From: Candidatus Poseidoniaceae archaeon
Lineage (GTDB): Archaea > Thermoplasmatota > Poseidoniia > Poseidoniales > Poseidoniaceae
NCBI GenBank assembly: GCA_938030705.1
Contig: CALHIR010000002.1
Span: forward strand, 66,515-130,514
Direction: 5' to 3'
Length of the DNA: 64,000 bases
Of this stretch, positions 5,436 to 58,031 are shown one piece after another; position 1 is the stretch's first letter, and each line of letters starts with the position of its first letter. Below the pieces are notes generated by a model that saw only the letters and a list, made by a program, of their open reading frames with translations, was not told the DNA's origin and did not search any database. A program made the translations under genes and the position numbers.

Positions 5436-8400
5436 TCACAACAAATCGTCAAGGAAGGACGTGTCGATTTCCGGTGTCTTTGGCGCAGGGGCAGGTTCGT
5501 CAAGCAGACCGTCGAGGAGCGAGGTATCGACTTGTGGTCTGAGAACAGGTTGTGGCGCTTGGTAGGCCTGTCGCCCATAGTCTGCGGATTGAATCTCGTT
5601 GGCGGCTGCGTAGATATCGTTGGCCTGTTGTGTGGTGATGCCTGGCGGTGGTGCTGGAACAGCGGTTGGCGGTGCTGCGCTTGGTGCTGCGGCAGCGGGG
5701 GTGTCCCAATTGGTGTCTTGGATGCCCCAGGTCGCCTCCTGCAATTCCCATGACTTCGAACGTCGCTTGGAGCCGCTTCGGCCTCGGACGACCAAGACGA
5801 GCAAGAAAAGAACGATGAGCACCATGCCGGCGGCGATGAGGTTGGGCGTGGTGAGCAGTGACTCAAGGGAGAGCGGACGGTCGGCGTCGCCGTCTCCTTC
5901 GCTGTCTTTGTCCCCACTCAGCGCTTCGAGTTTCACCGCTTCCACGGTTAACTTGGCCACGGTATCGTCGTAAGGGACCACCGCCACATAATAGGCCGAG
6001 GTGTTGCTTAGGCCGTCAAATACATCCGGGGAAATTAGGAAGGAATTGGCAGAAACTGTTTCACCCACTTTGCTTGCGTCATCGGTACTGGTGAACATGT
6101 CTTCACTGATGTAGATATGATAGCCTCGGACGTTAGCGTTCACCGAATGTTGCCATTCAACGAAGATGTTGTTCTCCTCAAACCACTCAACCTCCACCTC
6201 TTCAATGTCCGGGAGGTACACCCCGGGATCGGTTATGCCCTCATCGGTCGCCGCCGAAGAGACCATCGTGAGCATGTCAACATGGGCGTTTCCTGACGAA
6301 TCCATCACCACCACTGCGACCCAGACTTCTTGTCCGGCGATAACGGGTATGTCGCCAGCAATCACGTCGATGACAAGCGGCAGGCTTGGTGCTCGATCCA
6401 GCGTGGCGATGGGGTTGAGCGCCATCTGAGTTCCGGGCTGGCCCACTTCCCCTTCAAAATTGTACGTCTCTGCATAGATGTGGTATTCCCAAACGTCATC
6501 AGCGTCGGAGAGGTCAAAGGAGAGCAACAAAGCACTTCCATCGTCGTTGGGCCGGTCGGTCAGCGTGAGGTCGGTGAGCCGGTCCGGGGCCGTGTTATCG
6601 TTGATGTTGTCAATCGGCGTGACGCTGACCTGCGTCAGGTCGGTGAGGTGGACGTTACCTTTCAGGTCGTGAACCGTCACGGCGACAAAGAGTTCCACAT
6701 CGGGCTGAATCAATCCAGGAGTTCCCTGCGAGAGGTCGTTTCCGCTGTCGACGTACAGGGCCGTTGAGATGGTGAGTTCAATCGGGTTGGTTCGCTCGTC
6801 AATCCACTGCTTGTTGAACGAGAAGCAACCGCAGATGTTGGGGTTGTTGCCGAAGGCTGCATAGGCCAAGGACAAATCTTCCACGGGAACATTGGATACC
6901 CAAACGGTGTACGAAGCAAAGTCCTCCACCGTCGACGGCTCCCAAACCACATCGATAGCGGTGCCATCATCGTTGGCGTGGTCAAAAGCCATCAGGGAGG
7001 TTATCCGTGGGGGTGTGGTGCCTTGGCCGATGATGTTCTGCAGCGGCGTGGCGGTCACCAAGAGGACATCGTCGGTGTTGCCGTTGAGCCAGACATCATA
7101 GGCGACCACACCAACGGTGTAGATTTGGCCGTCGATGAGCGGGACGCCGTCCATTGAGGAAATGATGGTCTGGTTCTCATCGCACGGGTTGATGACAGCG
7201 GCTTGCGAGAAACCATCCAGGTTATTCGCGACGTCCTCCACATGGTCGCCTTGTTTGATAAACACCGTGTAAAAGGCGCAATCATCCGCTGTACTGACGT
7301 TCCACTTCACCGTGATACGTCCGCCTTCATCGTTGAGCACATCGCTGGCCTCGGTCCCCTCGACAGGGTCCGGGGCGTCGTTATCGTTGAGCTCACCGGT
7401 GGGAACCACCGGGCCGACGACGGTGACATCGGAGAGGTTCTCTTGGCCTGTTTCGTCGACGCATGTGAATCCAATCCAAACGGGGACCCCGGGTGTTTGA
7501 GAGATCACGGATTGATTTCCTTCGTTGGGCGCGTAGGAGACGTAGGGCGTTCGGCCAAGTGCGTCCACCATGGGCGTGGTTGAGACGTACACGTTGGTGC
7601 TGGCAAGGTCGAGCGCCGTGCACCGGGCCCATTCGAGTTCAATGTCACCATCATCACCGTTGCTGCCCATGGCGCTGGCGGCTGCCCAAACCGGAGCCCC
7701 GGGGACCTCATCACTCGGTGAGGCTGGACCGAACGGCAGGGACACTTTGCCCCACCGACCATCGGTGTACTCGGCAACCACGACGGCGTAGTAATCCGTT
7801 CCGTCCTCGAGCGGGACGCCGTTGGCCGTCTCGATATCGGCCGCCAAGCGACTGTGGAGGGAGATGGCTTTGTCCGGCGTTTGGCCGAGCAACTCCAGTT
7901 CTGTGGGAGCCGTGGTCCACGGCCCCTCGTTGAGGAATACGAGGTATCGAGCGAAGTCCTCGTCGTGAACCAACGACCATGAGGCGGTCAAGACGCTGCC
8001 TCCGTCATCGGGGCGATCGTCCAATCCCACCATGGTCACGGGCGATTCGGTTCGGATGTAATCGTAGGTCAGTCGAACTTCCAAACTGCCGTTTGAAGGC
8101 GAGAAGAGACGCAGCGTGACATGGCGGGTGTTGTTGTATAACATCCCGTTGTCCACCGCGTCCTGAAGGTTCAACTCGAGCGCTGGGTCTTGGCTGAGGT
8201 TCAGCAGGACATCGTATTCCAACGCTACGGACTTTGCCCAGACGGGGGCGCCTGTGGTGGGCGAGGTCAACACCACGGGTACGTTTTGGAATAAGAGGCC
8301 ATGAACACCCGGCGCGCCCAAGGAATCGTCAAGTGCGTACGAGCCAGACGGGTCCACGAGTTCGATTGACATGCCGGGGTGCGTCATCTGCGTGATGTTG

Positions 8401-11400
8401 ATGCCACCTCCGTTGCCCATGGCACGGACCGTTAGCGGTAGGGCACGTCGCATCGAGGTGGGCTCAACTGGCGTGAACTGTCCGGTCCTGTCCCATCCCT
8501 GCAATCCATCCTCGGTGATGGCCCAAATGTAATTTGCACCCAAGACGCCGTTTCCAGCCTCCGTGGCCCTGAGGAAGACTTTGGCGGCGTGGTCATTTGT
8601 TCGGGCTTCAGAAAGCATCAGGTCGTTCTCCGACCCGATGGAAAGGAGATCTTCTCCGTCGCTCATCATGTGGACGATCGGGTACTGCGTCTGGAAGAGC
8701 GATGTACCGTCTTCGAAATCACCACTTGAGGCGTTCCAGTGGGTCAATGGACCTACATCGGTGGCCATGTGGACGCCCCACCAATCAGTAGTAACAGCCG
8801 TCACGGTGTTGGAAGGTAGCTGGTCGAAGCGGTGCGTTGAAGTAACGAGGAGGGTGCTTGGGTCAACCAGCGACACGCCGGGACGGTCCGACCCCCCTCG
8901 GCCGTCGTGGCTAATGATGAGGGTGGAGGCGCCCACGTTGTTTGTAATCACGGCAAGCCCCCACGCAGACTGACCCATCAGCCCGTTGGCTTTGGTCAGC
9001 GTCGTGCCGTTTTGGGTGGACGGGTTCCAAACAAACAGGCCCGCCGGGGTCGCCATGTAGACCTTGGAGCCAATGACGACCACGTCTTCTACCACGTTGC
9101 TGGGCAGGCCGTTGAAGGCGGTGATGGAATCCATCCAATCGTTGGTGCTGTAGTTCCAGCGACCAATACCACCATCGGTGGCGATGTAGAGTACGTTCGG
9201 GCTGTCGGCAAAGCCGTTCACGATGTTGGAGGGTAGGCCGGCGATGAGTCGTCCATTGCCGAACTGGTCGGTGGTTGGATTGAACATCTGCACGCCGGGC
9301 GGGCTTCCGCCATCGCCTGCAAGACCGACCACGAGTTGGCTGTTGTAGGTGTGCATCGTGTCGAATTTGGTGTGAAGCGAACCGCCGATGGCGGAGATGG
9401 ATTTGGTCAGCGTGTCGAGTTTGAGCATGCCGCCTGGGGAGGAAGCGATGTACAAGTCGGTCCCGTGAAGGTGGAGGTCGTTGGCCACGGTGTTGCCGGG
9501 GAGGGTCCAACCGTACTGCCAATCAACGGTGCCGTTTGGCAGGAAGGTGCCCTGAAGGATACCGGTCCCCGTGCTCCCGAAGTTGCCCAGTGCTGATGAG
9601 CCCGTCGTCGCCCAAAGATGGGTGGCGTTGGCGACCATCGAGGTGACTTGACCGCTGACGAGTCCGGGGAGGTCAACCACCGTTTGTCGTCCGGAAGATG
9701 AGAGCGTAGCGACTTCACTGTAGCCGGATGAGCCACCGGCCCGGCCGATCAACCATTCCGAAGATCCGCTGAGCCACTGCAAGGAGGTGACCGGTGAACC
9801 GGCCCCTTGGACTTGCGCTTGGAGGGCGGTTGCCCCACTGGCGACCAAGGTCGAATACCCGCCAGCGATGAGGTTGGACCCCGAGTTTCCAACAGCGTGT
9901 CCGACGATGAGTTGCGTGCCCGAATGGGAGAGCGCATCGTACCACACACGGTCGCTCGGGAGGTTGTGGCTTGCGGTGGTCAAACTGGAGATGAAGCTTG
10001 AGGTAGCGTAGCTGTAGCGGCTGATTGGCTGGTTGTCGTTGTAGTAGCCGATGTAGAGGGTGTCTTGATTGTCGCAGGCGACGGATGCGGGGGCTGTTCC
10101 GTCGAGTTGACTGCGGTCAAAGGGAGAGAGCGTGCCGTTTTGCAGGTCAATGCGAGCGATGCCGCCGTTGTTGTTGTACATGGCGACGTTAAGGACGCCA
10201 CCGCACATCTCCATCGAGATGGGATAGCCGTCTGGAACGAGGCTGAGGGAGTCTGCGGGATAGGTTGTCCAGGCACCAGCGCTGTTGAGGTGCGAAATGA
10301 TGCCTTCTCGGAATTGACCAAAGTTTGAGATGTCGGCACCGCCAACCACGAGGTTCGTGCCGTCCGTCCACAATTCATAAAATCGGTCACCGGCGTTGTT
10401 TGGTAGTCCGTTTCCTGCTTCCCACATGGTGTTCCATGTGTTGGTGGTTTCGTTGTACCGGGCGATGCCGTCTTCGGTAGCAAAGAGCGTTTCGCCGTCG
10501 TATTCCACGATGCCTCGGATGGGGAATTCAAAGTTGGTCCAGGAATTGACCAGCGTTTTGGAACTGTCATAAAGGTCAAGTTTCAAATCGCCCCATGCAA
10601 CCCAGGTGTTCCCGTTGGAAGATTCGTAGGCCGTGACGCGGTCAATGGACCCCGTGGGCAAGATGTTGCTCTCATAGGCTGAGTTGGTCGTGTTCCATCG
10701 TGCGATGCCTCCTGAGCCGTCGGTGTTCCACCATTGGCCTGAAACAACGCTGACCAGCAAGGTGTCGCCCACCAATTCCATGTTGACGATGTCCCCGCCG
10801 TTTTCCCCGACTTGGGCCCCGATGTCAAGGTTGGAGAGTGGAACAGCGTTGGTCACGTTCAAGCGACTGACTTCATCGCCGGCCGTGCCTGAGTGGTAAT
10901 ACATGATGTTGTTGTGGAGGATCATGCCGTACGGGTCGCCGTTGGCCGTGTATTGGCTGCTGGTGCTTTCGATATCGTAAACCTCCGCGCCGTTGGTCAC
11001 GTTGATGAGTTGGAAACCGTCACTTCCACCGACCCAAATCATGTCTTGACGAATATCGGCCACTAAACCGGTGACATCGTCGTTGCCACCGTCGAGCACA
11101 CCGTTGTCTTCGGTGAACGGGGTGAGCCACTGGTTGGAGGTGATGTTGTAGCGTAACACGCCCAACCCCTCGGTTCCGATGTAGGCGATGTCGCCCATGA
11201 TCTCGACCACGGCGTTGCCCGTTTGGGTGCCTTGGCCCCAGTTCTCATCGTGTTGGAAGTTGGATTTTGTGATGAGCCCCACGCCTGAATTGGTGCCGCC
11301 ATAGACGTAGGTGCTGTCGTAGCCCACGCTGTACGTGGCCCAGTTGGGCATCCCGTCGTAGACGTTCTGGCAGTCGTTGATGCCCATGGTGGCAATGCTG

Positions 11401-13766
11401 TATTTACAGACGCCAATGTTGGTTCCTGCGTAGAGGCTTCCTCCACTGATGCTGGACTCGACAGCGAAATCATAGAATTGCTGAGGTCGTGTTTGCCATG
11501 AGGAGCCTTGGCCGAAACTTGTCATTTGATTCCCGTCCCACTTCCGAGCACCTTGTTGGGTGCCGATGTAAAGATTGAACCCATCCGTATCAAGCGCAAA
11601 AATTTGGTCGGATGGGAGCAGACCGCCTCGGTTTCCTGCGGTCAAGGGTGAGAGAATTTCGCCCGTGCTGAGGTCCTTGCGCACCACGCCATACCCCTGC
11701 AAGCCGAGATGGAGGATGTTGCCGACCATGGCTACGGGGGCGTTGTTGACGCCGTTGATGCCCGTGGAGCCCCAGGGCTCAAGCCATGTGTCGTTGGTGA
11801 TGTCGTAGCGGAGGAGGCCTTTGTCCTCCGTGGCTACATAGGCGGTGTCGTCGAAGAGAGCGACATCGCCGACAAATGATGTGGGGAGCCCGTTGGTGGT
11901 ATCGTAGGCCGTACAGGCTCCACCGTTTCGGTCAAAGTGAACAAATGCACCACCGTCAAGAGAGAAGACCACGCTGTCTGCGTCCACCGCGAGGTCGTTG
12001 ATGTTGGCCGAAGACGGATAGCATCCCGAGGTCCCATCGTAGGTCTGAACGCTGTTGCCACTGGTGTCCATTTCTTCGACCACAGGGCTACCTTCCATGC
12101 CGAGGAAGAGCGTTGTCGTTCCTTGAGTTGTCGGTGCGGCGACGATGTGTATCACGTTGTCCGTGACCGTCCATGGCGTGAGCCAGACCGAGTTGCTGAT
12201 GTCGTACCGCATGACGAGCATGGAGTTGTCCGCCGTCCCGAGGTAGAGGACGTTGTCAACCTCGACCAAACCGGTCATCTCATCGGTCGCAGGGGCACTG
12301 GCGAGCAACAATTCACCTTTGACGAACGGGGATTGGTTGGGTGAGAGGTGAATCAGGTTCCCGCTGCCATCGCCCACCAGCAAGGCGTCATTGGCGGGGG
12401 AAGCGCCCCCGCTCGACATCCAGGGAAGAAGCGATTTTCCTTCGTTGGTCAGTCCGAGCGTTTCAAGATCGTAAGTGGTGGAGAAGACGCCGTTGGTGGT
12501 GTTGTAGGTGTGCAGGGAATCGCCGTTGAGAATGAAGAGGGTTGGGCCAATCCGGGCCAAACCAGCGATGCCGTCACTGTCGAGCCAATTTCCAGAATTC
12601 CATGTTGATAACCAAAAGCCGGATGCGTAATCAAATCGCCCCAGCCCGTTGTCGGGGGAGCCGAGCAGGAGTTGGTTTCCAGAGACGACCATGTGAGTGA
12701 TCCGGTCGGAATGAAGGTTGTTGGCCGAACTCCACGTGGCGAGGCCACTTCCAGTGTTGATGTCGTACCTCAAAACCCCAGCGCCTTCAATGGCCGCATA
12801 CACGACGCCACCAACTTCGAGCATGGACAGCGCCTTCGTGCCTCCGTCGGTGGCGGTGACGGATACCACGGAATTCCATGCTGCACCGTCCCACTTCACG
12901 AGGCCTAAACCGCTTGCAGCGAAGACCTCGCCGCCACTCGTTAGCAGGAAGCGATCCACGTCTCCATCGGCCAAGGGAGTGACGAAACTGCTGTTGGTGG
13001 TGAGAAGCGCGCGGAAGGTCCCGTCCGCCATCAGGAGATGAAGGACACCGGTGCTGTCGTCCATGACCATGTCGAGCACACCGCCCTCGGCCGTGTAGTC
13101 GTAGACGTCAATGGTGTTCGGGTCGTTGTTGGCGTGCAGGACGAAGAGTTGTTCGTTGACCGCAAGGTAAAGCAATCCAGTTTCAGGATTGACGACGCGG
13201 TCATGAATCTCAAAATTAAGCGGTGTGAGCGACACCAAGGGGTCGGCCGGCGCCAATGCTTCAATGACCATCTTGGTGATTTCGGCATCCGATGGCAAGT
13301 CCCACCCAGCTCCTGAATTGCTGTTTGGGTTGAGGCGCCCGGCATAGGTGCTCCCGGTGGTGAAGGAATCGGCTTCGCCGAGCACGCCCAAGCCTCGCCA
13401 GTCAAACAGCGAGGTTCCCAAACCGTCAACCACCAATTGTGGTTCCTCGATGGTCATGCCGTCTTGGCCGCTGGCCCGTATTTCGAGCGTGACATTCGAT
13501 AAATCGGCTCCGGGAGCGAAGGCCAAATCCCAATCTGCACTCGCTCGTTGACCCGTTTCAGGGACGGCACCAAGCGCATCGAGCGTGACCCACCCGGTGT
13601 CGTTACTTCCTTCCAGTGGCCATGTCACGCCGCTTGGTTCCGCGTGGGCTGAAACGACCGGCGTGGTGAGAAGGGGCCCCATTGACATGAGGACCATCAG
13701 GACGACCATGGAAAGGGCTCGTTGGCGACGAGCCCCAAGACGGTCACCTTGGTGGCTGAGTTTCAT
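5436..13766 (-). CDS. Giant surface protein (2776 aa): signal peptide, many beta-propeller-type repeats, several FN3-like domains, C-terminal TM helix and cytoplasmic tail
   Basis: Recurrent GVLRYNITSNQWLTPF / GLPSNVV / LYIGTQQGARKWDG units; FN3-like RPNDDGSALLLSFDLSDADDVWEYHIY units; TM LIAAGMVLIVLFLLVLVV followed by basic RGRSGSKRRSK. Confidence 0.85.
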   Translation of the reverse strand: MKLSHQGDRLGARRQRALSMVVLMVLMSMGPLLTTPVVSAHAEPSGVTWPLEGSNDTGWVTLDALGAVPETGQRASADWDLAFAPGADLSNVTLEIRASGQDGMTIEEPQLVVDGLGTSLFDWRGLGVLGEADSFTTGSTYAGRLNPNSNSGAGWDLPSDAEITKMVIEALAPADPLVSLTPLNFEIHDRVVNPETGLLYLAVNEQLFVLHANNDPNTIDVYDYTAEGGVLDMVMDDSTGVLHLLMADGTFRALLTTNSSFVTPLADGDVDRFLLTSGGEVFAASGLGLVKWDGAAWNSVVSVTATDGGTKALSMLEVGGVVYAAIEGAGVLRYDINTGSGLATWSSANNLHSDRITHMVVSGNQLLLGSPDNGLGRFDYASGFWLSTWNSGNWLDSDGIAGLARIGPTLFILNGDSLHTYNTTNGVFSTTYDLETLGLTNEGKSLLPWMSSGGASPANDALLVGDGSGNLIHLSPNQSPFVKGELLLASAPATDEMTGLVEVDNVLYLGTADNSMLVMRYDISNSVWLTPWTVTDNVIHIVAAPTTQGTTTLFLGMEGSPVVEEMDTSGNSVQTYDGTSGCYPSSANINDLAVDADSVVFSLDGGAFVHFDRNGGACTAYDTTNGLPTSFVGDVALFDDTAYVATEDKGLLRYDITNDTWLEPWGSTGINGVNNAPVAMVGNILHLGLQGYGVVRKDLSTGEILSPLTAGNRGGLLPSDQIFALDTDGFNLYIGTQQGARKWDGNQMTSFGQGSSWQTRPQQFYDFAVESSISGGSLYAGTNIGVCKYSIATMGINDCQNVYDGMPNWATYSVGYDSTYVYGGTNSGVGLITKSNFQHDENWGQGTQTGNAVVEIMGDIAYIGTEGLGVLRYNITSNQWLTPFTEDNGVLDGGNDDVTGLVADIRQDMIWVGGSDGFQLINVTNGAEVYDIESTSSQYTANGDPYGMILHNNIMYYHSGTAGDEVSRLNVTNAVPLSNLDIGAQVGENGGDIVNMELVGDTLLVSVVSGQWWNTDGSGGIARWNTTNSAYESNILPTGSIDRVTAYESSNGNTWVAWGDLKLDLYDSSKTLVNSWTNFEFPIRGIVEYDGETLFATEDGIARYNETTNTWNTMWEAGNGLPNNAGDRFYELWTDGTNLVVGGADISNFGQFREGIISHLNSAGAWTTYPADSLSLVPDGYPISMEMCGGVLNVAMYNNNGGIARIDLQNGTLSPFDRSQLDGTAPASVACDNQDTLYIGYYNDNQPISRYSYATSSFISSLTTASHNLPSDRVWYDALSHSGTQLIVGHAVGNSGSNLIAGGYSTLVASGATALQAQVQGAGSPVTSLQWLSGSSEWLIGRAGGSSGYSEVATLSSSGRQTVVDLPGLVSGQVTSMVANATHLWATTGSSALGNFGSTGTGILQGTFLPNGTVDWQYGWTLPGNTVANDLHLHGTDLYIASSPGGMLKLDTLTKSISAIGGSLHTKFDTMHTYNSQLVVGLAGDGGSPPGVQMFNPTTDQFGNGRLIAGLPSNIVNGFADSPNVLYIATDGGIGRWNYSTNDWMDSITAFNGLPSNVVEDVVVIGSKVYMATPAGLFVWNPSTQNGTTLTKANGLMGQSAWGLAVITNNVGASTLIISHDGRGGSDRPGVSLVDPSTLLVTSTHRFDQLPSNTVTAVTTDWWGVHMATDVGPLTHWNASSGDFEDGTSLFQTQYPIVHMMSDGEDLLSIGSENDLMLSEARTNDHAAKVFLRATEAGNGVLGANYIWAITEDGLQGWDRTGQFTPVEPTSMRRALPLTVRAMGNGGGINITQMTHPGMSIELVDPSGSYALDDSLGAPGVHGLLFQNVPVVLTSPTTGAPVWAKSVALEYDVLLNLSQDPALELNLQDAVDNGMLYNNTRHVTLRLFSPSNGSLEVRLTYDYIRTESPVTMVGLDDRPDDGGSVLTASWSLVHDEDFARYLVFLNEGPWTTAPTELELLGQTPDKAISLHSRLAADIETANGVPLEDGTDYYAVVVAEYTDGRWGKVSLPFGPASPSDEVPGAPVWAAASAMGSNGDDGDIELEWARCTALDLASTNVYVSTTPMVDALGRTPYVSYAPNEGNQSVISQTPGVPVWIGFTCVDETGQENLSDVTVVGPVVPTGELNDNDAPDPVEGTEASDVLNDEGGRITVKWNVSTADDCAFYTVFIKQGDHVEDVANNLDGFSQAAVINPCDENQTIISSMDGVPLIDGQIYTVGVVAYDVWLNGNTDDVLLVTATPLQNIIGQGTTPPRITSLMAFDHANDDGTAIDVVWEPSTVEDFASYTVWVSNVPVEDLSLAYAAFGNNPNICGCFSFNKQWIDERTNPIELTISTALYVDSGNDLSQGTPGLIQPDVELFVAVTVHDLKGNVHLTDLTQVSVTPIDNINDNTAPDRLTDLTLTDRPNDDGSALLLSFDLSDADDVWEYHIYAETYNFEGEVGQPGTQMALNPIATLDRAPSLPLVIDVIAGDIPVIAGQEVWVAVVVMDSSGNAHVDMLTMVSSAATDEGITDPGVYLPDIEEVEVEWFEENNIFVEWQHSVNANVRGYHIYISEDMFTSTDDASKVGETVSANSFLISPDVFDGLSNTSAYYVAVVPYDDTVAKLTVEAVKLEALSGDKDSEGDGDADRPLSLESLLTTPNLIAAGMVLIVLFLLVLVVRGRSGSKRRSKSWELQEATWGIQDTNWDTPAAAAPSAAPPTAVPAPPPGITTQQANDIYAAANEIQSADYGRQAYQAPQPVLRPQVDTSLLDGLLDEPAPAPKTPEIDTSFLDDLL

Positions 13767-14579: not shown

Positions 14580-16916
14580 TTGGGGAAGCCCATGTCCATG
14601 AGCAAAAAAGACCGGATGCTGCGCAAGGAGGCGCTTGAGTATCACGAGGCTGAACCGCAGGGAAAAATCAAGGTTGTACCGACCAAACCTCATGCCACCG
14701 CTCACGAGTTGAGTTTGGCCTACTCCCCCGGTGTCGCTTATCCCTGCTTGGAGATTGAGGAGCGGCCCGAAGACGCCTACCGATACACGTCAAAAGGCAA
14801 CCTTGTGGCGGTGATTTCCAACGGCACGGCCGTCCTCGGCTTGGGTAATATCGGTGCTCTGGCCAGCAAACCCGTCATGGAAGGCAAGGGGTTGCTGCTC
14901 AAGACCTTCGCCGGCATCGATGTCTTTGACATCGAAGTCGACACCGAAGACTCCGAGGAATTCATCAACACCGTCGTCAACATCTCGAAGACCTTCGGCG
15001 GTATCAACCTCGAGGACATCAAAGCCCCCGAGTGTTTTGAGATCGAACGCCGTATCTCGGAAGCGACCGACATTCCCGTGATGCACGACGACCAGCACGG
15101 CACGGCCATCATCTCCGCTGCGGCCCTCCTCAACGCTGCTGAACTTCAGGGCAAAGCCCTCGCCGACCTTTCCGTGGTGGTCATCGGTGCCGGCGCCTCG
15201 GCCATCGCCTGTGCCAATCACTATGTTGCCGTGGGTGTGAGCATGGAGAACATCACGCTGGTTGACAGTCAAGGCATCATCACCAAAGCAAGGCTGGAAG
15301 CAGGTGAACTGAACGAATACAAGGCGCCCTTTGCCCAAGACCGCCCCGCCGGCGACTTGGCGGACGCCCTCAACGGTGCGGACGTGATGTTGGGCCTTTC
15401 TCGGGGCGGTTTGGTCACCAAGGAAATGGTCGCGAAGATGGCCGAAAAACCGATCATCTTCGCGCTGGCGAACCCCACCCCCGAAATTCTTCCCGAAGAG
15501 GTGCTTCAGGTGCGTCAAGACGCCATCATCGCCACCGGCCGCTCCGATTATCCCAATCAGGTGAACAATGTTCTCGGGTTTCCCTACATTTTCCGAGGCG
15601 CGTTGGACGTCCGGGCGCGGGACATTACCCAGAAGATGAAAATGGCCGCAACGAAAGCCTTGGCGGCCCTGGCCAAGGAACCCGTTCCTGACTACATTTC
15701 GGCAGCCTACGACGGCGTCGTGATGCAATACGGCCCCGAGTACATCATCCCGAAACCCTTTGACCGGCGAGTGCTTCTTTGGGAGGCTGCTGCGGTTGCA
15801 CAAGCCGCCATTGACGAGGGCATTGCTGGCGTTTCAACTGAGGAGTTCAACATCGACCGCTACCGAGAGGAACTCGAGGCGCGTTTGGGTGAATCGTACT
15901 CTGTCATGCGCCAGATGATCAACCAAGTCAAAGGGAAAGAAAAGCGAATCGTCTTCCCCGAGGGCGACAAAGAACCCGTCCTCCGGGCAGCCGCTCAGTT
16001 GGTGGAGCAAAACATCTGCCACCCCATCCTCCTTGGTCCCGTTGACCGTATCGACCGAATGGTTGAGGAATTGGGGTTGAATTTTGAATACGAAGCCTTT
16101 GACCCCCGCTACGACGAGCGACGAAAAACGGAGTACGCCAACGCCTTCTTCAAGCGGCGACAGCGAAAAGGAACGACCTGGCCTGACGCAGCTCGCTTGC
16201 TCAAAAGCCGCCCCTATTTCGCCGCCCAGATGGTTCATGCAGGCGATGCTGACGGTTTTGTTGGCGGCGTCAGCCGAAATTATGCCGACGTGCTCAAGCC
16301 AACGTTGGAACTCATTGGGAAGGCTGACGATGCACACTGCGTCATCGGCTGCTACATGATGAACATCAAAGGCCGAACGATTTTCCTCGCCGATGCGACG
16401 GTGAACGTCTATCCCGACAGCCGAACGCTGGCGGAAATTGCCGTTCAAACTGCGAAGGTTGCCCGACGGTTCGGTGTGGCGCCGCGGGTGGCCATGCTTT
16501 CGTTTTCCAACTTTGGCTCCACACGGGCCCAACGTTCAGAACGCATCGAGGAAGCGGTCGTGATGGCCCGAACATTGGACCCGACGCTGATGATTGACGG
16601 CCCCATGCAGAGCGATACCGCCCTCAACCCTTCCATTCAGGAGGAGTATCCGTTCATGAAACTGGTCGGTCCGGCCAACGTGTTGATTTTGCCCAATTTG
16701 GCCTCGGCCAACATCGCCTACAAACTTCTTGAGGAACTTGGCGACGCCGAGATGACCGGCCCCATTCTCGAAGGCATGGCTCACCCTGTCCAACTGGTGG
16801 CGCGTCAAGATGGAGTGCGCCACATCGTCAACATGGCGACGATTTGTACGGCCGACGCCATTCGAAAAGACACCTATTGGGCGACGCTTATCGAGGATGA
16901 TTCAACTTCATCGTAG
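14580..16916 (+). CDS. maeB: NAD(P)-dependent malic enzyme, MaeB-type, fused to phosphotransacetylase-like domain
   Basis: SLAYSPGVAYPCLEI, VAVISNGTAVLGLGNIGALASKPVMEGKG, MHDDQHGTAII; C-terminal PTA-like GGVSRNYADVLKPTLELI...NVLILPNLASANIAYKLLEELG. Confidence 0.95.
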   Translation: MGKPMSMSKKDRMLRKEALEYHEAEPQGKIKVVPTKPHATAHELSLAYSPGVAYPCLEIEERPEDAYRYTSKGNLVAVISNGTAVLGLGNIGALASKPVMEGKGLLLKTFAGIDVFDIEVDTEDSEEFINTVVNISKTFGGINLEDIKAPECFEIERRISEATDIPVMHDDQHGTAIISAAALLNAAELQGKALADLSVVVIGAGASAIACANHYVAVGVSMENITLVDSQGIITKARLEAGELNEYKAPFAQDRPAGDLADALNGADVMLGLSRGGLVTKEMVAKMAEKPIIFALANPTPEILPEEVLQVRQDAIIATGRSDYPNQVNNVLGFPYIFRGALDVRARDITQKMKMAATKALAALAKEPVPDYISAAYDGVVMQYGPEYIIPKPFDRRVLLWEAAAVAQAAIDEGIAGVSTEEFNIDRYREELEARLGESYSVMRQMINQVKGKEKRIVFPEGDKEPVLRAAAQLVEQNICHPILLGPVDRIDRMVEELGLNFEYEAFDPRYDERRKTEYANAFFKRRQRKGTTWPDAARLLKSRPYFAAQMVHAGDADGFVGGVSRNYADVLKPTLELIGKADDAHCVIGCYMMNIKGRTIFLADATVNVYPDSRTLAEIAVQTAKVARRFGVAPRVAMLSFSNFGSTRAQRSERIEEAVVMARTLDPTLMIDGPMQSDTALNPSIQEEYPFMKLVGPANVLILPNLASANIAYKLLEELGDAEMTGPILEGMAHPVQLVARQDGVRHIVNMATICTADAIRKDTYWATLIEDDSTSS

Positions 16917-25982: not shown

Positions 25983-26453
25983 TCACATCAGTACATCGAA
26001 CGTGTAGATGAAACCCAAGAAGGCGTGAATGAATACGAGGTAGATGATCAGGTCTGCGGCTCGTCCGTGCTTGAGTTTAGCTACAGCGAAGGATTCTCCT
26101 GCCGTTCGCTGAGCTCGGGCCTGCTTGCCAAGGCGCGTCATGAACACCATCAAGCCAAAGCCAACGGGCCCCATGAACCCGTGGAGGGATTGCGGCACAA
26201 GGGAGACCATCACGCCTTCACCGGCGTACCAGCCCGTGAAGCCACGGGCAACAAAGGCCACGAGGATGACGACCCCGGTGGCCCAAAGGAGGCGTTCCCC
26301 GTTGGTTTCGTGGCGGGCCAAGTGGATGGCTCGCTCTTCGCCTTTGAGTTGATAGGACTTTTTTCGCCAAGCGTATTGCCACCACATCCACACCACCAAT
26401 GCGCTCGCCAGAAGCGGGTGCAAAAGCAAAGCAACGGTGGGTATGAGTTCCAT
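25983..26453 (-). CDS. Four-TM membrane protein, possibly DUF4079/cytochrome b561-like
   Basis: LLLHPLLASALVVWMWWQYAWRKKSYQ and further TM helices; family call is tentative. Confidence 0.5.
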   Translation of the reverse strand: MELIPTVALLLHPLLASALVVWMWWQYAWRKKSYQLKGEERAIHLARHETNGERLLWATGVVILVAFVARGFTGWYAGEGVMVSLVPQSLHGFMGPVGFGLMVFMTRLGKQARAQRTAGESFAVAKLKHGRAADLIIYLVFIHAFLGFIYTFDVLM

Positions 26454-26580: not shown

Positions 26581-29500
26581 TTGGACGAACAGTACATGGA
26601 AACCTGTCTCAAGGCAGCGTTTTCAAAACCCAAGTCGGGTACTGTTCGCGTCTCCATCATGAATCGTGAGTCTGCGTGGAAGATGTTGGCCAAACCTCTC
26701 CGTGCCCATTTGGTCATCGCTGCTCACGAACAAGAGCCGCCTGCTTCTGAAGACGATGAGGACGCTTCACCACGCCGCCCCACCATGAATCGACCCCGAG
26801 GTCGCATGCGTCGTTCGGGTCGACAAACGGGCCCAGCTCACATGTCATGGCTTCACAAACCCCAAGAGATCATCGACGAGTCTCCCTACTCCACCGCCTA
26901 CCAATTGGCAACCTTGCTGGTGCATAAGCAACTGGATGAGGACAACTGGGACGAGGCTTGGAATGCTCAGGAAAACCTGCTTCGAGAAACGTGCATGGTG
27001 GAAGGCGTCCATCCCGTGTGGCATACCATCGGGGAAAAGACCCCACTTCTGGGCCAATTCCTCGCCTTCCCAAAGGCCAAGGTGGTCAAGGCCAAAGAAA
27101 CGGTATCGATGGGAACGGACTTCTTCTGGATTGACCCGCGGGACAAAGACGGCATCATAACCGTACTGAAATTAGCCAGCGCTGGCGTGAACGACCCGGA
27201 CATCAAGGTCGCCCTACAGAAGGCCACCAACCAAATTTCTGGCGGCCGGTCGTTGGATTTGGAGGCGCCACTGAACGCGCTTGAGGGCTCCATGGCCTTC
27301 ATCACCGTCTTGCTTGCACTTCATGCCGGTCATGAAGTCCCCCCGGCGGCGAGAAAGGCCTGCAAGAAGGCTGATGGGGACCTTGCTGATGCACTGGAGG
27401 ACTTCGAACGTCTTCTCGCCGGCACCGTCAACGATTGGCCCTCGCTTCTTTCGTTGAGTCGCGACGACTCGCTCTCGATGGCTCGCCGAACCCTCGGCTG
27501 GCAACACGCTCCCTCAGAAGCCGAGTCTTGCACTTCAAGTGACCTTGAGGCAGGCCTGGCTTTGCTTGAACAAGCAGGCATCCACGAAGGTCGTGATCGA
27601 TTGACGTGGTGGCGTTTGAATGCGCTGCTGAAGGAAGGCGATCAAACCGAGGCGGTCAGCGTTCTCCAAGAGCGCCGACTGGATGCCACCTCGGATGTCG
27701 CCGAATTGCTTCCAGTTGTTGTCTCCCTCAACAGCGAAGAAGCCAACGATTGGCTGATGCGTTTCATGGACGACGTGGACGAACATGCCCTGTATCATAT
27801 CCTTCATGAGATGGCCTTGAGCGCTCCGCTACGTCGCAAGGCGGCCCAGCGTCTGTGCGATGAGCAAGGTCCGATGTGGGAGGAAAGTCGCTCGGTGGCC
27901 CTTTCGCTGTTGCTCGAAGAACTCGATGTTGACCGTCTGGCCCGAGTCTTTGCAAGCGACGACCTTCTCTCACTCTCCCATCCCTACATGTCGCTGCTCG
28001 TGAGCCATCTGGCACCCGCCAACATCAATGCTGCTCTTCGCCCTCACATCTCGACGTGCCGCACGCAGGCTTTGCAAGCCATTCACGGGGCAGAGGTGCC
28101 CGATGTGTTGAGTCCTTTGGCCGAGCACCTCCTTCTGTTGATGGAAGGCATCTACAAAGAAACTCCAGAAGTGGCTGAAGTGCTCAGCACCAAGGCGCTG
28201 AAGGCCTTCTCGCCGATCAGCAGGGCCCTGGCCGGCGACGGCGTGGTCAGCGCTACCCATGTTCGCAACATGGGAGCCAGTTTGGAAGAACTGGCCCTTT
28301 CGCCTATCGAGCGACGCTTGTTTGACGTGATGTTGCTCACCCTGACGATGAACCGCCACCTCCAGGCGTTCAACATCGGCATGGCAAAGGCGGAGGACAC
28401 CGAAGAATTGGACCACCTCTTGGTCAATCCCGCCCTCCCGCTTCGCCTGATTCAATCCTTCTCCGTTTTGATGGTGGAACACGACCTGGGCCTGCCGAAC
28501 CTGGTCGCTTGGTACCAGAAGAATGACCCGCTCTCACCGTGGGCGCCGCTGGCCCGAGCGGCTCATTTTACCGCCGAGGCTGATGAGTTGAATTCCGCTC
28601 GCGAATACTCCCGGGCGGCCGAGTTGTTCAACAAGCAACGAAAGAGCGGCAACGACGCCACCGACTGGGCATCCAGCAGCGAAGACAACGACTTCGTTCT
28701 CTCGTTGCCGTTGATGCTCTATCGCAAGTCCCTCATTCACTACGCCCACGCCACTTCATGGTCTGAGGCCGTTGAGTTGCTCGATCGTGTGCCTTCGCTG
28801 AAGACCGCCATTACGGAACGCTTCAAACTCTACTTGCGGGTGTGTCACTTGGCAGGGAAGGACACCAATGCTGCCGCCCGCCTTATCCGGAACCATGTGC
28901 AACAACGCCGGACGGTCCTCGAAGAGGATGTTGAAGGCAACATGGTGGAAAAGACGCGAACGTCCTACAACGAAGAAGAACTCGACCTGCTTCGCAATTA
29001 TCCGTTTGAACAGGCCCACCTTCTGCCACCTGAGCCCTTCTTGGGTCGTGTCACAGCGGCATCGACCCACATCAGTCGGGACTTGCGCCGTTCCAGAACA
29101 CAATTCGAGCATCAATTTAGGCAAGCCATGCAGGGCAGTTCGCCTTCCATGGAAGAGATCTACGAGATCGCCAAGAACGCTGCCGAAGAAGCGGCCTTTG
29201 AGGGCTTGATGTACCTCGAGCGGGCTCAGAACTCGAATAAATTCTCAATCACGGCCCGCCAACGACTTGCCGGCGTCGAACAATCGCTTTTCTCACAGTA
29301 CAAAGATGACATTCCGACCTCAAAACGTCGGTTCTTGCACAATCTTTCCTTGACGCCACTGGTCATTGTTGACACCAACGTGCTCGTTGATGCCCTCGTA
29401 GAGCGGATGTACCAACGCATGGATTTGGTGCTTGAAACCAACGTCAACATCATTGGCGCAAATCAGTTCCATCGTATTCTCCTCCACCACGCTCAAGCCA

Positions 29501-30039
29501 AGCGTCTGGTGATGATGATCCCCGAAGATGTGCGGGGCGAACTCAAGCAGTTTGCCAAGGACCAACGCCTGCTCTACCGTTTCAAGAGCGCCATGGTGGA
29601 CACTTCACTCCTCGAAGAGACCTTGAACGAGAAGGTGATGATGAAACTGGTTGAGGAAGTCCTCTCGGAATACAGTACATGGAGCCCGAGTGCAGAAATG
29701 TTGGCGGGCGTGCCCGAGGCTTCCGACGACCTCAACGCCTTCTTGATTCGACACAGCGACGTGTTTGAAGAACTCAGTGAACTCAAACGCTACCGCGGCA
29801 TCACGTACCGAACAGATTTGGAAGGGCGCGAAATTTACCCCGAATCCACCGACCTTGACATCTATCGCCTCGCCACGCATCTTGCCTCGCTTCCTCTCCC
29901 CACGATCGGCGTGGTGCTGGTGGCGACCATGGACGGTGACTTCACGCTGGTGGACCGGGCCATTGAGGAACGCTTTGGCTTCAGTGTGGCCAAGAACCAC
30001 CGTTCGCTTAAACCGTGGCTGAAGCGACAGGCCAACTGA
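26581..30039 (+). CDS. Large helical-repeat protein with C-terminal PIN-domain nuclease
   Basis: 1152-aa ORF (TTG start, or ATG at 26596); C-terminal LVIVDTNVLVDALVERM...MIPEDVRGELKQF...VLVATMDGDFTLVDRAIEERFGF carries PIN acidic residues; upstream ~900 aa look alpha-helical. Confidence 0.75.
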   Translation: MDEQYMETCLKAAFSKPKSGTVRVSIMNRESAWKMLAKPLRAHLVIAAHEQEPPASEDDEDASPRRPTMNRPRGRMRRSGRQTGPAHMSWLHKPQEIIDESPYSTAYQLATLLVHKQLDEDNWDEAWNAQENLLRETCMVEGVHPVWHTIGEKTPLLGQFLAFPKAKVVKAKETVSMGTDFFWIDPRDKDGIITVLKLASAGVNDPDIKVALQKATNQISGGRSLDLEAPLNALEGSMAFITVLLALHAGHEVPPAARKACKKADGDLADALEDFERLLAGTVNDWPSLLSLSRDDSLSMARRTLGWQHAPSEAESCTSSDLEAGLALLEQAGIHEGRDRLTWWRLNALLKEGDQTEAVSVLQERRLDATSDVAELLPVVVSLNSEEANDWLMRFMDDVDEHALYHILHEMALSAPLRRKAAQRLCDEQGPMWEESRSVALSLLLEELDVDRLARVFASDDLLSLSHPYMSLLVSHLAPANINAALRPHISTCRTQALQAIHGAEVPDVLSPLAEHLLLLMEGIYKETPEVAEVLSTKALKAFSPISRALAGDGVVSATHVRNMGASLEELALSPIERRLFDVMLLTLTMNRHLQAFNIGMAKAEDTEELDHLLVNPALPLRLIQSFSVLMVEHDLGLPNLVAWYQKNDPLSPWAPLARAAHFTAEADELNSAREYSRAAELFNKQRKSGNDATDWASSSEDNDFVLSLPLMLYRKSLIHYAHATSWSEAVELLDRVPSLKTAITERFKLYLRVCHLAGKDTNAAARLIRNHVQQRRTVLEEDVEGNMVEKTRTSYNEEELDLLRNYPFEQAHLLPPEPFLGRVTAASTHISRDLRRSRTQFEHQFRQAMQGSSPSMEEIYEIAKNAAEEAAFEGLMYLERAQNSNKFSITARQRLAGVEQSLFSQYKDDIPTSKRRFLHNLSLTPLVIVDTNVLVDALVERMYQRMDLVLETNVNIIGANQFHRILLHHAQAKRLVMMIPEDVRGELKQFAKDQRLLYRFKSAMVDTSLLEETLNEKVMMKLVEEVLSEYSTWSPSAEMLAGVPEASDDLNAFLIRHSDVFEELSELKRYRGITYRTDLEGREIYPESTDLDIYRLATHLASLPLPTIGVVLVATMDGDFTLVDRAIEERFGFSVAKNHRSLKPWLKRQAN

Positions 30040-30090: not shown

Positions 30091-31329
30091 TCACATGTGT
30101 TGAATCATGGCTTCGCCAAATGCGCTGCATGAAAGCAGCGTGGCATCGTCCATCAATCGCTCGAAGTCGTAGGTGACCGTTTTGTTGGAAATGGCGCCTT
30201 CCATGCCTTTGACGATGAGGTCGGCAGCTTCTTTCCATCCCATGTGGCGCAGCATCATTTCTGCAGAGAGGATGAGTGAGCCGGGGTTCACTTTGTCTTG
30301 TCCGGCGTACTTTGGAGCGGTACCGTGGGTGGCCTCAAAGATGGAAATGCCCGTGTCGTAGTTGATGTTGGCGCCCGGTGCGATACCAATACCGCCAACC
30401 TGGGCTGCGAGTGCGTCGGAGATGTAATCGCCGTTGAGGTTCATGGTGGTCAACACGCTGTATTCTGCAGGTCGCGTGATGATTTGCTGGAGCATGGCGT
30501 CAGCGATGACGTCTTTGATGATGATCTCGTTCCCGGTGTTCGGGTTGGTGAGTGTGCACCATGGACCACCGTCGAGTTCCTTTGCACCAAACTCCTTCTG
30601 GGCGAGGGTGTAGCCCCAGTCTCGGAACCCACCTTCGGTGAACTTCATGATGTTGCCTGTGTGGACCAGGGTGACGCTTGTTTGGTCGTTGTCAATGGCG
30701 TACTGAATAGCGGCCCGGACGATACGGGCCGTGCCTTCCTTCGAAACGGGTTTGATGCCGATGCCCGAGGTGTTGGGGAATCGGATTTTGTCGACCCCCA
30801 TCTCGTTTTGCAAGAAGTCGATGACGCGCTTCACCTCGTCGCTTTCTGCTTCCCATTCAATGCCCGCGTAGACGTCTTCACTGTTCTCTCGGAAGATGAT
30901 CATGTCAACGTCTTGGGGCGCTTTGACCGGCGAAGGGGTGCCGTCGTACCAGCGGACGGGGCGAACACAGGCGTAGAGGTCAAGCTTCTGACGAAGCGCA
31001 ACGTTGAGTGACCGAATACCGCCGCCCACGGGGGTGGTCAGGGGTCCTTTGATGGAGACCAATCCAGATTTCATGGCGTCAAGGGTCGCTTGAGGCAGCC
31101 ATTCACCGGTGGCGTTGAAGGCTTTCTCGCCCGCGAGGACTTCGGACCATACGATGCTTTTCTCGCCACCGTAGGCTTGTTCCACCGCAGCGTTGACCAC
31201 ACGAATCATGACGGGCGTGATATCAACGCCAATGCCGTCGCCCTCAATGTAGTGAATCACGGGGTCGTTGGGGACCTTGAGTGTGCCGTCTTCCATGGTT
31301 ACCGGTGTACCTGTCATGTCTCTCACCAT
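30091..31329 (-). CDS. icd: Isocitrate dehydrogenase (NADP-type)
   Basis: [81 protein letters not shown]. Confidence 0.95.
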
Positions 31330-38672: not shown

Positions 38673-41942
<3,270 letters not shown>

Positions 41943-56294: not shown

Positions 56295-58031
56295 TCAGTC
56301 GGCGTGGATGTCGCCTACGTCCAACCAGATCACGTTGCACTTGGCTTTGATGAGGGCCGCTACGGAGGGTTGGGTTCGCCCACTGTCGCCGTGAATCGTC
56401 TCTTTGACGTACGTGCCCGATTCACAGCGAAGCGTGAATTCAATTTCCCGCTGCCCGTCCTCGTTTACCTCGATAACTGGCGAGTGCGATTCAAACACGG
56501 TTCGCTTTCTGATGAGGTCTGAGCGTCGGTGCGAGACGCGTTCGGGCGTGCGCTGAGCCAATTTCATGCCGTTAAGTCCCTCAACCACTTTGAGGATGGC
56601 TTCGTCGTCGGGCAAATCAAACACAGCCGGTGCCGGTGGCAGGGCCGCGAGAATGCGCTCGATGAGTTCGTCTTTCTTTCCGGTCTTGGCCAGCCCGTGG
56701 GTCTCGGCGAGAGCGACCAGTTCTGGCTTTTTCATCGCCTTAAGTTCCTTTTCGCTGGGTCCGGCGGCCGGAACTTCGATGGTCGTTTCCAGCGGTTTGG
56801 TCCGGTCGGCATCCTTGTCGCCTCGGCGTTGCCGCCGCCGTTTCTTGCTTCGGTTTTGCACGTCCTCCTTGGTCATGTCAACCGGGGCGGTCAGCACGGC
56901 GTATTCCGCTTCGTTCATGGGCTCAAGCGTGAACCGGATGGTGTAGGATTTCTCAGCTGGCGTGTCTTTGATACGCACAACTTCGCTCCGAGTTGAGGGG
57001 CGAATGGACGAGACTTCGACCGAGCCTTTCGCTGCTTTGTTGATGATTTCCGCCAGCTTTTCGGCGTTGAAGCTGCGCTTACGAGGCTCTTTAATTTCAA
57101 GAACAAAGGGTCGACCACGACCCAAACAGCGCACATCGATGTCTTCTCGACCCATACCGTGGAAAGCGTGTTCGCTACCTTGGAAAATTTCGAGCATCGG
57201 GTTACCGACCAGGTCCTGGACGCTCTTCTTGTATTGCAGACCGGTTTGGTCGCAGCGTTCGCAACCTCGTCCTTTACAGGCTCGGCACGGCCATCGAGTT
57301 TGAGGAATGCCTCGTTCGAGTTTTCGATAGCGACCGTAGACGTAGACAGCCCGTACATCGAGGTCCACCGTGAGGGTCAACACGTCGATGAGTGCCAACA
57401 CATCCGGCTTATCGCTCACCATCGTGATGCCGTCCAAGCGGTCGTTGAGGCGCTTTCCGATCGCTTCCACGAGCGATGATTTGAGCGGGTCTGAACCACC
57501 GGCACCAAGGCGCTTTCTGAGTTTCTCTTCGTCCTCGATCTGGTCTTTGGGAAAGCGTGCACCGAGTTGCAATCGGTTGATGTCGTAGGGCTCAATGGCG
57601 TCAAAGATGATGTCGGCGAGTAAATCCACTTCCTCGAAGAGGTTCTCGCAGAACGGACACAACGGCTCGTCTTCCCGGGCCTTGGCCAGATGGGGGTCTC
57701 GTTCGACCACCGATTCACGAACGCCTTTGCCCGCATCTTCAAGCGATTGACCGTACATGCGTTTCCCACCCACGCGGCCTAAACAGGCATCACAGGTCCC
57801 TTGACGAACCAAATGCTTGTGCCCGGCGGGGCGCGGTGCCCGAGGAATTTCCTCAACGTGCGTGCCCAATTGCATGGCCACTTCTTGCTGGTGGGCTTCG
57901 TCTTCTTCCGCCGGTGCAATGTCGTCCCAGAGGGAATAATCCGTCTCACCAAAGCCAGCGTTGGCGTACTTCATCCAGTCGTCTTCATCGTCATCGACGT
58001 CTTCGGCCGTATCGGGTTCATTGGTTGTCAT
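56295..58031 (-). CDS. pus10: tRNA pseudouridine synthase Pus10 with SAP-like insertion
   Basis: CDACLGRVGGKRM, GREDIDVRCLGRGRPFVLEIKEPRKRSF, AQRTPERVSHRRSDLIRKR, CESGTYVKETIHGDSGRTQPSVAALI; inserted LKAMKKPELVALAETHGLAKTGKKDELIERILAAL. Confidence 0.9.
   Translation of the reverse strand: MTTNEPDTAEDVDDDEDDWMKYANAGFGETDYSLWDDIAPAEEDEAHQQEVAMQLGTHVEEIPRAPRPAGHKHLVRQGTCDACLGRVGGKRMYGQSLEDAGKGVRESVVERDPHLAKAREDEPLCPFCENLFEEVDLLADIIFDAIEPYDINRLQLGARFPKDQIEDEEKLRKRLGAGGSDPLKSSLVEAIGKRLNDRLDGITMVSDKPDVLALIDVLTLTVDLDVRAVYVYGRYRKLERGIPQTRWPCRACKGRGCERCDQTGLQYKKSVQDLVGNPMLEIFQGSEHAFHGMGREDIDVRCLGRGRPFVLEIKEPRKRSFNAEKLAEIINKAAKGSVEVSSIRPSTRSEVVRIKDTPAEKSYTIRFTLEPMNEAEYAVLTAPVDMTKEDVQNRSKKRRRQRRGDKDADRTKPLETTIEVPAAGPSEKELKAMKKPELVALAETHGLAKTGKKDELIERILAALPPAPAVFDLPDDEAILKVVEGLNGMKLAQRTPERVSHRRSDLIRKRTVFESHSPVIEVNEDGQREIEFTLRCESGTYVKETIHGDSGRTQPSVAALIKAKCNVIWLDVGDIHAD

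Follow-up and report, generated by a model that had tools for sequence, protein, structure and literature searches.

The window, i.e., the whole stretch of 64,000 nucleotides of Ca. Poseidoniaceae DNA analysed here, carries an intact open reading frame (ORF) of 1152 aa, just as a sequence-only reading of this DNA had described, with TTG as its start codon (Table 1). We refer to it as the PIN gene after its predicted C-terminal domain. A start codon (TTG, ATG, or GTG) was aligned at the same place in 48 of 67 relatives, which makes initiation at TTG plausible. Searching with the whole protein gave a match in 168 of the 194 genomes of Ca. Poseidoniales (Marine Group II), mostly over the full length and with 27–100% identity. 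The dN/dS of the whole gene was 0.05 and 0.07 against two close relatives. These two results indicate that the ORF is a real gene. In the same comparisons, the main segments all gave values below 0.1, and the insert within the PIN domain was the least constrained part (0.10–0.17). The gene is thus under strong purifying selection. A search with the C-terminal part found one copy in its own genome. The whole protein had no match in Pfam, NCBIfam, or the PDB sequences, in agreement with the earlier remark that no family could be recognised for the helix-rich part, and the PADLOC scan likewise gave nothing usable.

Table 1 Features of the PIN gene and its two flanking genes in the window.
Feature	Position	Strand	Evidence or remark
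Divergent upstream neighbour, cytochrome b561-like membrane protein	25983..26453	-	PF01292 E 6.9e-5, below cut-off
Whole gene, predicted helical-scaffold PIN protein, TTG start	26581..30039	+	1152 aa, intact ORF
Predicted disordered basic RG-rich loop, residues ~56–83	26746..26829	+	pLDDT <50 at 56–83
Predicted alpha-solenoid, residues ~86–910, degenerate TPR-like helix pairs	26836..29310	+	AlphaFold2 full-length model
Predicted PIN-like domain, residues ~924–1147	29350..30021	+	Invariant acidic residues D931, E987, D1091, D1118, D1120
Predicted helical insert within PIN domain, residues ~997–1084	29569..29832	+	Model, alignment
Convergent downstream neighbour, presumed isocitrate dehydrogenase (context)	30091..31329	-	Syntenic in most loci

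The PIN gene is flanked by a divergent gene upstream and by a convergent gene downstream, the latter presumably isocitrate dehydrogenase (IDH), judging from its sequence; therefore, the PIN gene appears to be transcribed alone. The sequence-only reading had pointed out that no small antitoxin ORF is adjacent, and this was borne out by the orientation of both flanks. A VapC toxin–antitoxin pair was rejected on the length of 1152 aa, the divergent and convergent flanks, and the absence of a partner gene. A search with PF01850 found no VapC-type PIN domain in the genome of the window, and the 1152-aa protein also failed this model. The gene order DHH(+), cytochrome b561-like(-), PIN gene(+), IDH(-), and OsmC(+) recurred in both families of the order, with some rearrangement downstream of the PIN gene in one of the two. 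A nudix gene was also among the conserved neighbours, besides DHH and IDH. The pair of cytochrome b561-like and PIN genes was kept in nearly all loci; we regard the former as context, not as a proven partner. In many genomes, the PIN gene and IDH are separated by a TPMT-like methyltransferase gene. It was not found in the window, and it was seen beside IDH at L194:13169-13816 and L195:12686-13378. Elsewhere in the window, a 2776-aa ORF (5436–13766, -) had no Pfam match at E <= 0.001. A 1089-aa ORF (38673–41942, +) had no Pfam match and has a homologue with 34% identity in the g9 genome locus L195. A Pus10-like protein that also carries a SAP domain (56295–58031, -) and a malic enzyme fused to a phosphate acetyl/butyryltransferase domain (14580–16916, +) were also encoded.

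PIN-type acidic residues had been noticed in the last ~250 aa. D931, E987, and D1118/D1120 in the stretches quoted at that time, together with D1091, which was not quoted, proved invariant. In all, D931, T932, N933, E987, R1077, D1091, D1118, D1120, and F1121 were identical in 68 of 68 aligned proteins, the distant members of which share only 26–30% identity. The acidic set (D-T-N, E, D, and D-x-D) stood in the PIN order (D...E...D...D) in all 68. An AlphaFold2 model of residues 880–1152 based on 52 sequences (model m8e072d1a44e4; pLDDT 82.7, pTM 0.83) predicted the secondary structure b1-a1-a2-b2-a3-insert-a-b3-a-b4-a, in which the strand and helix order of PIN domains is present and the acidic residues occupy PIN positions. 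In this model, the helical insert falls between the E987-bearing helix and D1091, and the E987-to-D1091 span was 101–123 residues in all relatives.

Profile comparisons pointed in the same direction. A Pfam scan of 38 members gave only weak matches, namely PIN in 10, NYN in 7, PIN_12 in 6, and PIN_3 in 3, and none of the members scanned passed the Pfam PIN cut-off; one relative matched PIN_12 over its full length (E 8e-4). When the profile without the insert was compared by hhalign with two PIN alignments derived from loci of Thermoplasmatota, the scores were 38.4 and 40.7 (probability 87–88%), and the maxima with shuffled columns were 18.9 and 16.1; removal of the insert was chosen after the intact profile had scored lower (probability 35% and 83% in local mode). 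Foldseek of the PIN model against the PDB gave no significant PIN match (best E 0.23, not a PIN), and the top match in a viral fold library was a PIN protein below significance (E 0.19, probability 0.72). PDB matches of the profile to lectin neck repeats and a Dot protein look like chance repeat or coiled matches and were rejected. Taken together, these results suggest that the C-terminal domain very likely has a PIN-like fold, short of proof.

The helix-rich nature proposed for the preceding ~900 aa was reproduced in the full-length AlphaFold2 model (pLDDT 82.8, pTM 0.64), which was all-helical to ~910 apart from a beta hairpin at 774–796, and disordered at 56–83 and 691–703. In Foldseek, this model had no match with E <= 0.001. 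Its best matches were long TPR/HEAT scaffolds (Ski complex, Paf1-complex chains, and importins; E >= 2.5e-3, TM <= 0.18), Ski3 and Ctr9 among them, a weak similarity typical of any long helical solenoid. TPR_19 and PPR were each matched weakly in one of the 29 members scanned. The solenoid is mostly acidic in charge, and no recognised RNA-binding domain was found in the protein. The loop (~56–90) was basic and rich in RG in every aligned relative, each of which carried at least one RG or GR dipeptide (mean 2.8), at varying positions; R78 was invariant and R77 was conserved in 94%. The predicted architecture, a solenoid followed by a C-terminal PIN domain, thus gained support from the AlphaFold2 models, the invariant residues, and the profile comparison.

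The named relatives were Ca. Poseidonia and other Ca. Poseidoniaceae, and in the GTDB genome scan, which yielded 160 further relatives, all 80 loci kept had titles fitting the Marine Group II lineage. When 293 genomes of the phylum were searched with a profile, the PIN gene was detected in 77 and in none outside Ca. Poseidoniales, six sister-family genomes of the same class included. The survey of neighbourhood and phyletic spread that had been proposed revealed a conserved gene order and a gene not found outside one order. The PIN gene was missing from every listed member of the genera g13 (family f2) and g9 (family f1). Even at E <= 10, the profile that had found the gene in 77 genomes detected no PIN gene in g9 and g13 (a search run with no positive control). 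In five g9/g13 genomes, DHH was followed by the methyltransferase, IDH, and OsmC, and the PIN gene was gone; one of these carried a small additional ORF within this run. In the sixth (G013), the cytochrome b-like gene was kept, a different gene lay at the start site of the PIN gene, and the contig ended soon after. Replacement of the PIN gene by the methyltransferase was rejected, because the latter coexists with the PIN gene in many genomes; it is simpler to assume that the PIN segment was deleted. The two losses are probably independent, since g9 and g13 belong to different families. Some further absences reflect incomplete genomes and carry little weight. We also rejected a tie between loss of the PIN gene and a lack of rhodopsin (deep-water habit), since rhodopsin occurs in members of both g9 and g13. 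The gene has apparently been inherited vertically, and because two genera lack it, the lineage as a whole can dispense with its function.

From these results, we consider it probable that the PIN gene encodes a metal-dependent PIN endoribonuclease built on a TPR-like alpha-solenoid, with a vertically inherited, dispensable role in RNA processing or turnover in Poseidoniales. The solenoid and the RG-rich loop would recruit an RNA or a ribonucleoprotein, or else a protein partner that brings in either of these; D931, E987, D1091, and D1118/D1120 would bind one or two divalent metals; the PIN domain would cut the recruited RNA; and the helical insert may shape the channel for the substrate or else an interface between two subunits of a dimer. 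What we infer is the nuclease activity, the preference for RNA over DNA, the role of the solenoid, and the pathway. The architecture and fold are predicted, and the gene itself, its invariant acidic residues, its conservation across the order, the gene order, the purifying selection, and the absence from two genera are observed. A housekeeping role is favoured by the presence of the gene in most genomes of the order, the conserved gene order, and the low dN/dS, and the protein gives the impression of an ordinary, inherited enzyme of cell maintenance, not of a toxin or virus-defence gene. The sequence-only reading had offered RNA quality-control, ribosome-associated, and defence roles. Of these, defence is disfavoured by the apparent vertical inheritance, fixed gene order, single copy, and marginal PADLOC match, and a general role in RNA metabolism is the best inference, be it in quality control or in rRNA or tRNA processing.

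Other explanations were weighed on the same evidence. RNA is favoured as the substrate because of the basic RG-rich loop. PIN-like folds include DNA flap nucleases, and the superfamily contains FEN1/XPG-type DNA nucleases; with flap and 5'-3' exonucleases among the very weak viral fold matches, a stable nuclease acting on DNA in repair or flap processing comes into view. We think this unlikely, since the weak Pfam matches lie on the PIN/NYN/PIN_12 side and the RG-rich loop is present in every relative, even though both would be compatible with DNA too. PIN nucleases and TPR-like sensors also occur in defence systems, and two genera manage without the gene, as might be expected if the solenoid sensed an invader and the PIN domain cleaved host or viral RNA in abortive infection. 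However, both families have the gene as a single copy at one locus, where neighbours including DHH, nudix, and IDH are conserved, patchy gain was not seen, purifying selection is strong, and the only PADLOC match, to BrxF, was marginal and confined to 2 of 29 members (best E 3.7e-4), all of which makes such a function quite improbable. A non-catalytic structural or binding domain is conceivable given that catalytically dead PIN domains exist, e.g., in SMG5 (PMC12923823). In a dead PIN, loss of some acidic residues would be expected, whereas all five were invariant even in the distant members, and we give this option very little credence.

Known proteins with comparable layouts bear on two further possibilities. 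PRORP joins a helical-repeat RNA-recognition region to a PIN-like metallonuclease, and HARP, common in archaea, carries inserted helices (the spike-helix domain) in its PIN domain (PMC8266387). Both likenesses, of layout only in the case of PRORP, would suit a lineage-specific stand-in for Nob1, HARP/PIN_5, or protein-only RNase P. In contrast to PRORP, the archaeal protein has no clear PPR repeats beyond the one weak match, and HARPs have no solenoid. Nob1 (PIN_6) was encoded by a separate protein and archaeal RNase P RNA was present in 10 of 10 genomes tested, PIN_5 (PF08745) was above cut-off in none of ten genomes (its own and nine others), and g9 and g13 lack the PIN gene. Identity with Nob1 or HARP and the need for a replacement RNase P enzyme were therefore rejected, and a stand-in role is largely refuted and very improbable. 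The PIN core resembles PIN_12 (PF16289) and VapC-type PIN (PF01850) in profile, but it is far below the curated cut-offs, and VapC proteins are small two-gene toxins. In SMG6, the endonuclease of metazoan nonsense-mediated decay, a C-terminal PIN domain with the D, E, D, D set comes after a TPR-like helical region (PMC12923823); our protein resembles it in layout alone, as judged from predicted structures. The archaeal solenoid is much longer, no 14-3-3-like domain was identified, ~100 residues separate the E and the next D, and the protein is limited to one archaeal order; among the Pfam, PDB-sequence, and Foldseek matches listed, none was to SMG6. SMG6 and PRORP (PMC12923823, PMC8266387) indicate that a scaffold plus PIN is a workable plan. 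That the protein is a dedicated archaeal RNA-surveillance endonuclease on the SMG6 plan, of independent origin in Poseidoniales and with a solenoid that docks on the ribosome or on a decay complex, is a specific proposal to which we assign only a small chance.

Among the planktonic archaea of surface waters, Marine Group II are the most abundant, and none of them has been cultured (PMC6461757). Our literature search retrieved no paper joining Poseidoniales and the PIN domain; in one virus paper, Marine Group II and the PIN domain were mentioned once each. The main text of a metatranscriptome study of Marine Group II archaea was silent on nucleases and hypothetical proteins, and no expression or biochemical data on the PIN protein were found in this search. 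What stands out here is a large conserved gene with an apparently intact nuclease site that is covered by no family model. If the surveillance reading were true, the SMG6-type plan of a TPR-like scaffold and PIN would have arisen separately in archaea. The conserved gene of ~1150 aa offers a concrete target in the RNA metabolism of Marine Group II, and the two genera without it provide a natural comparison.
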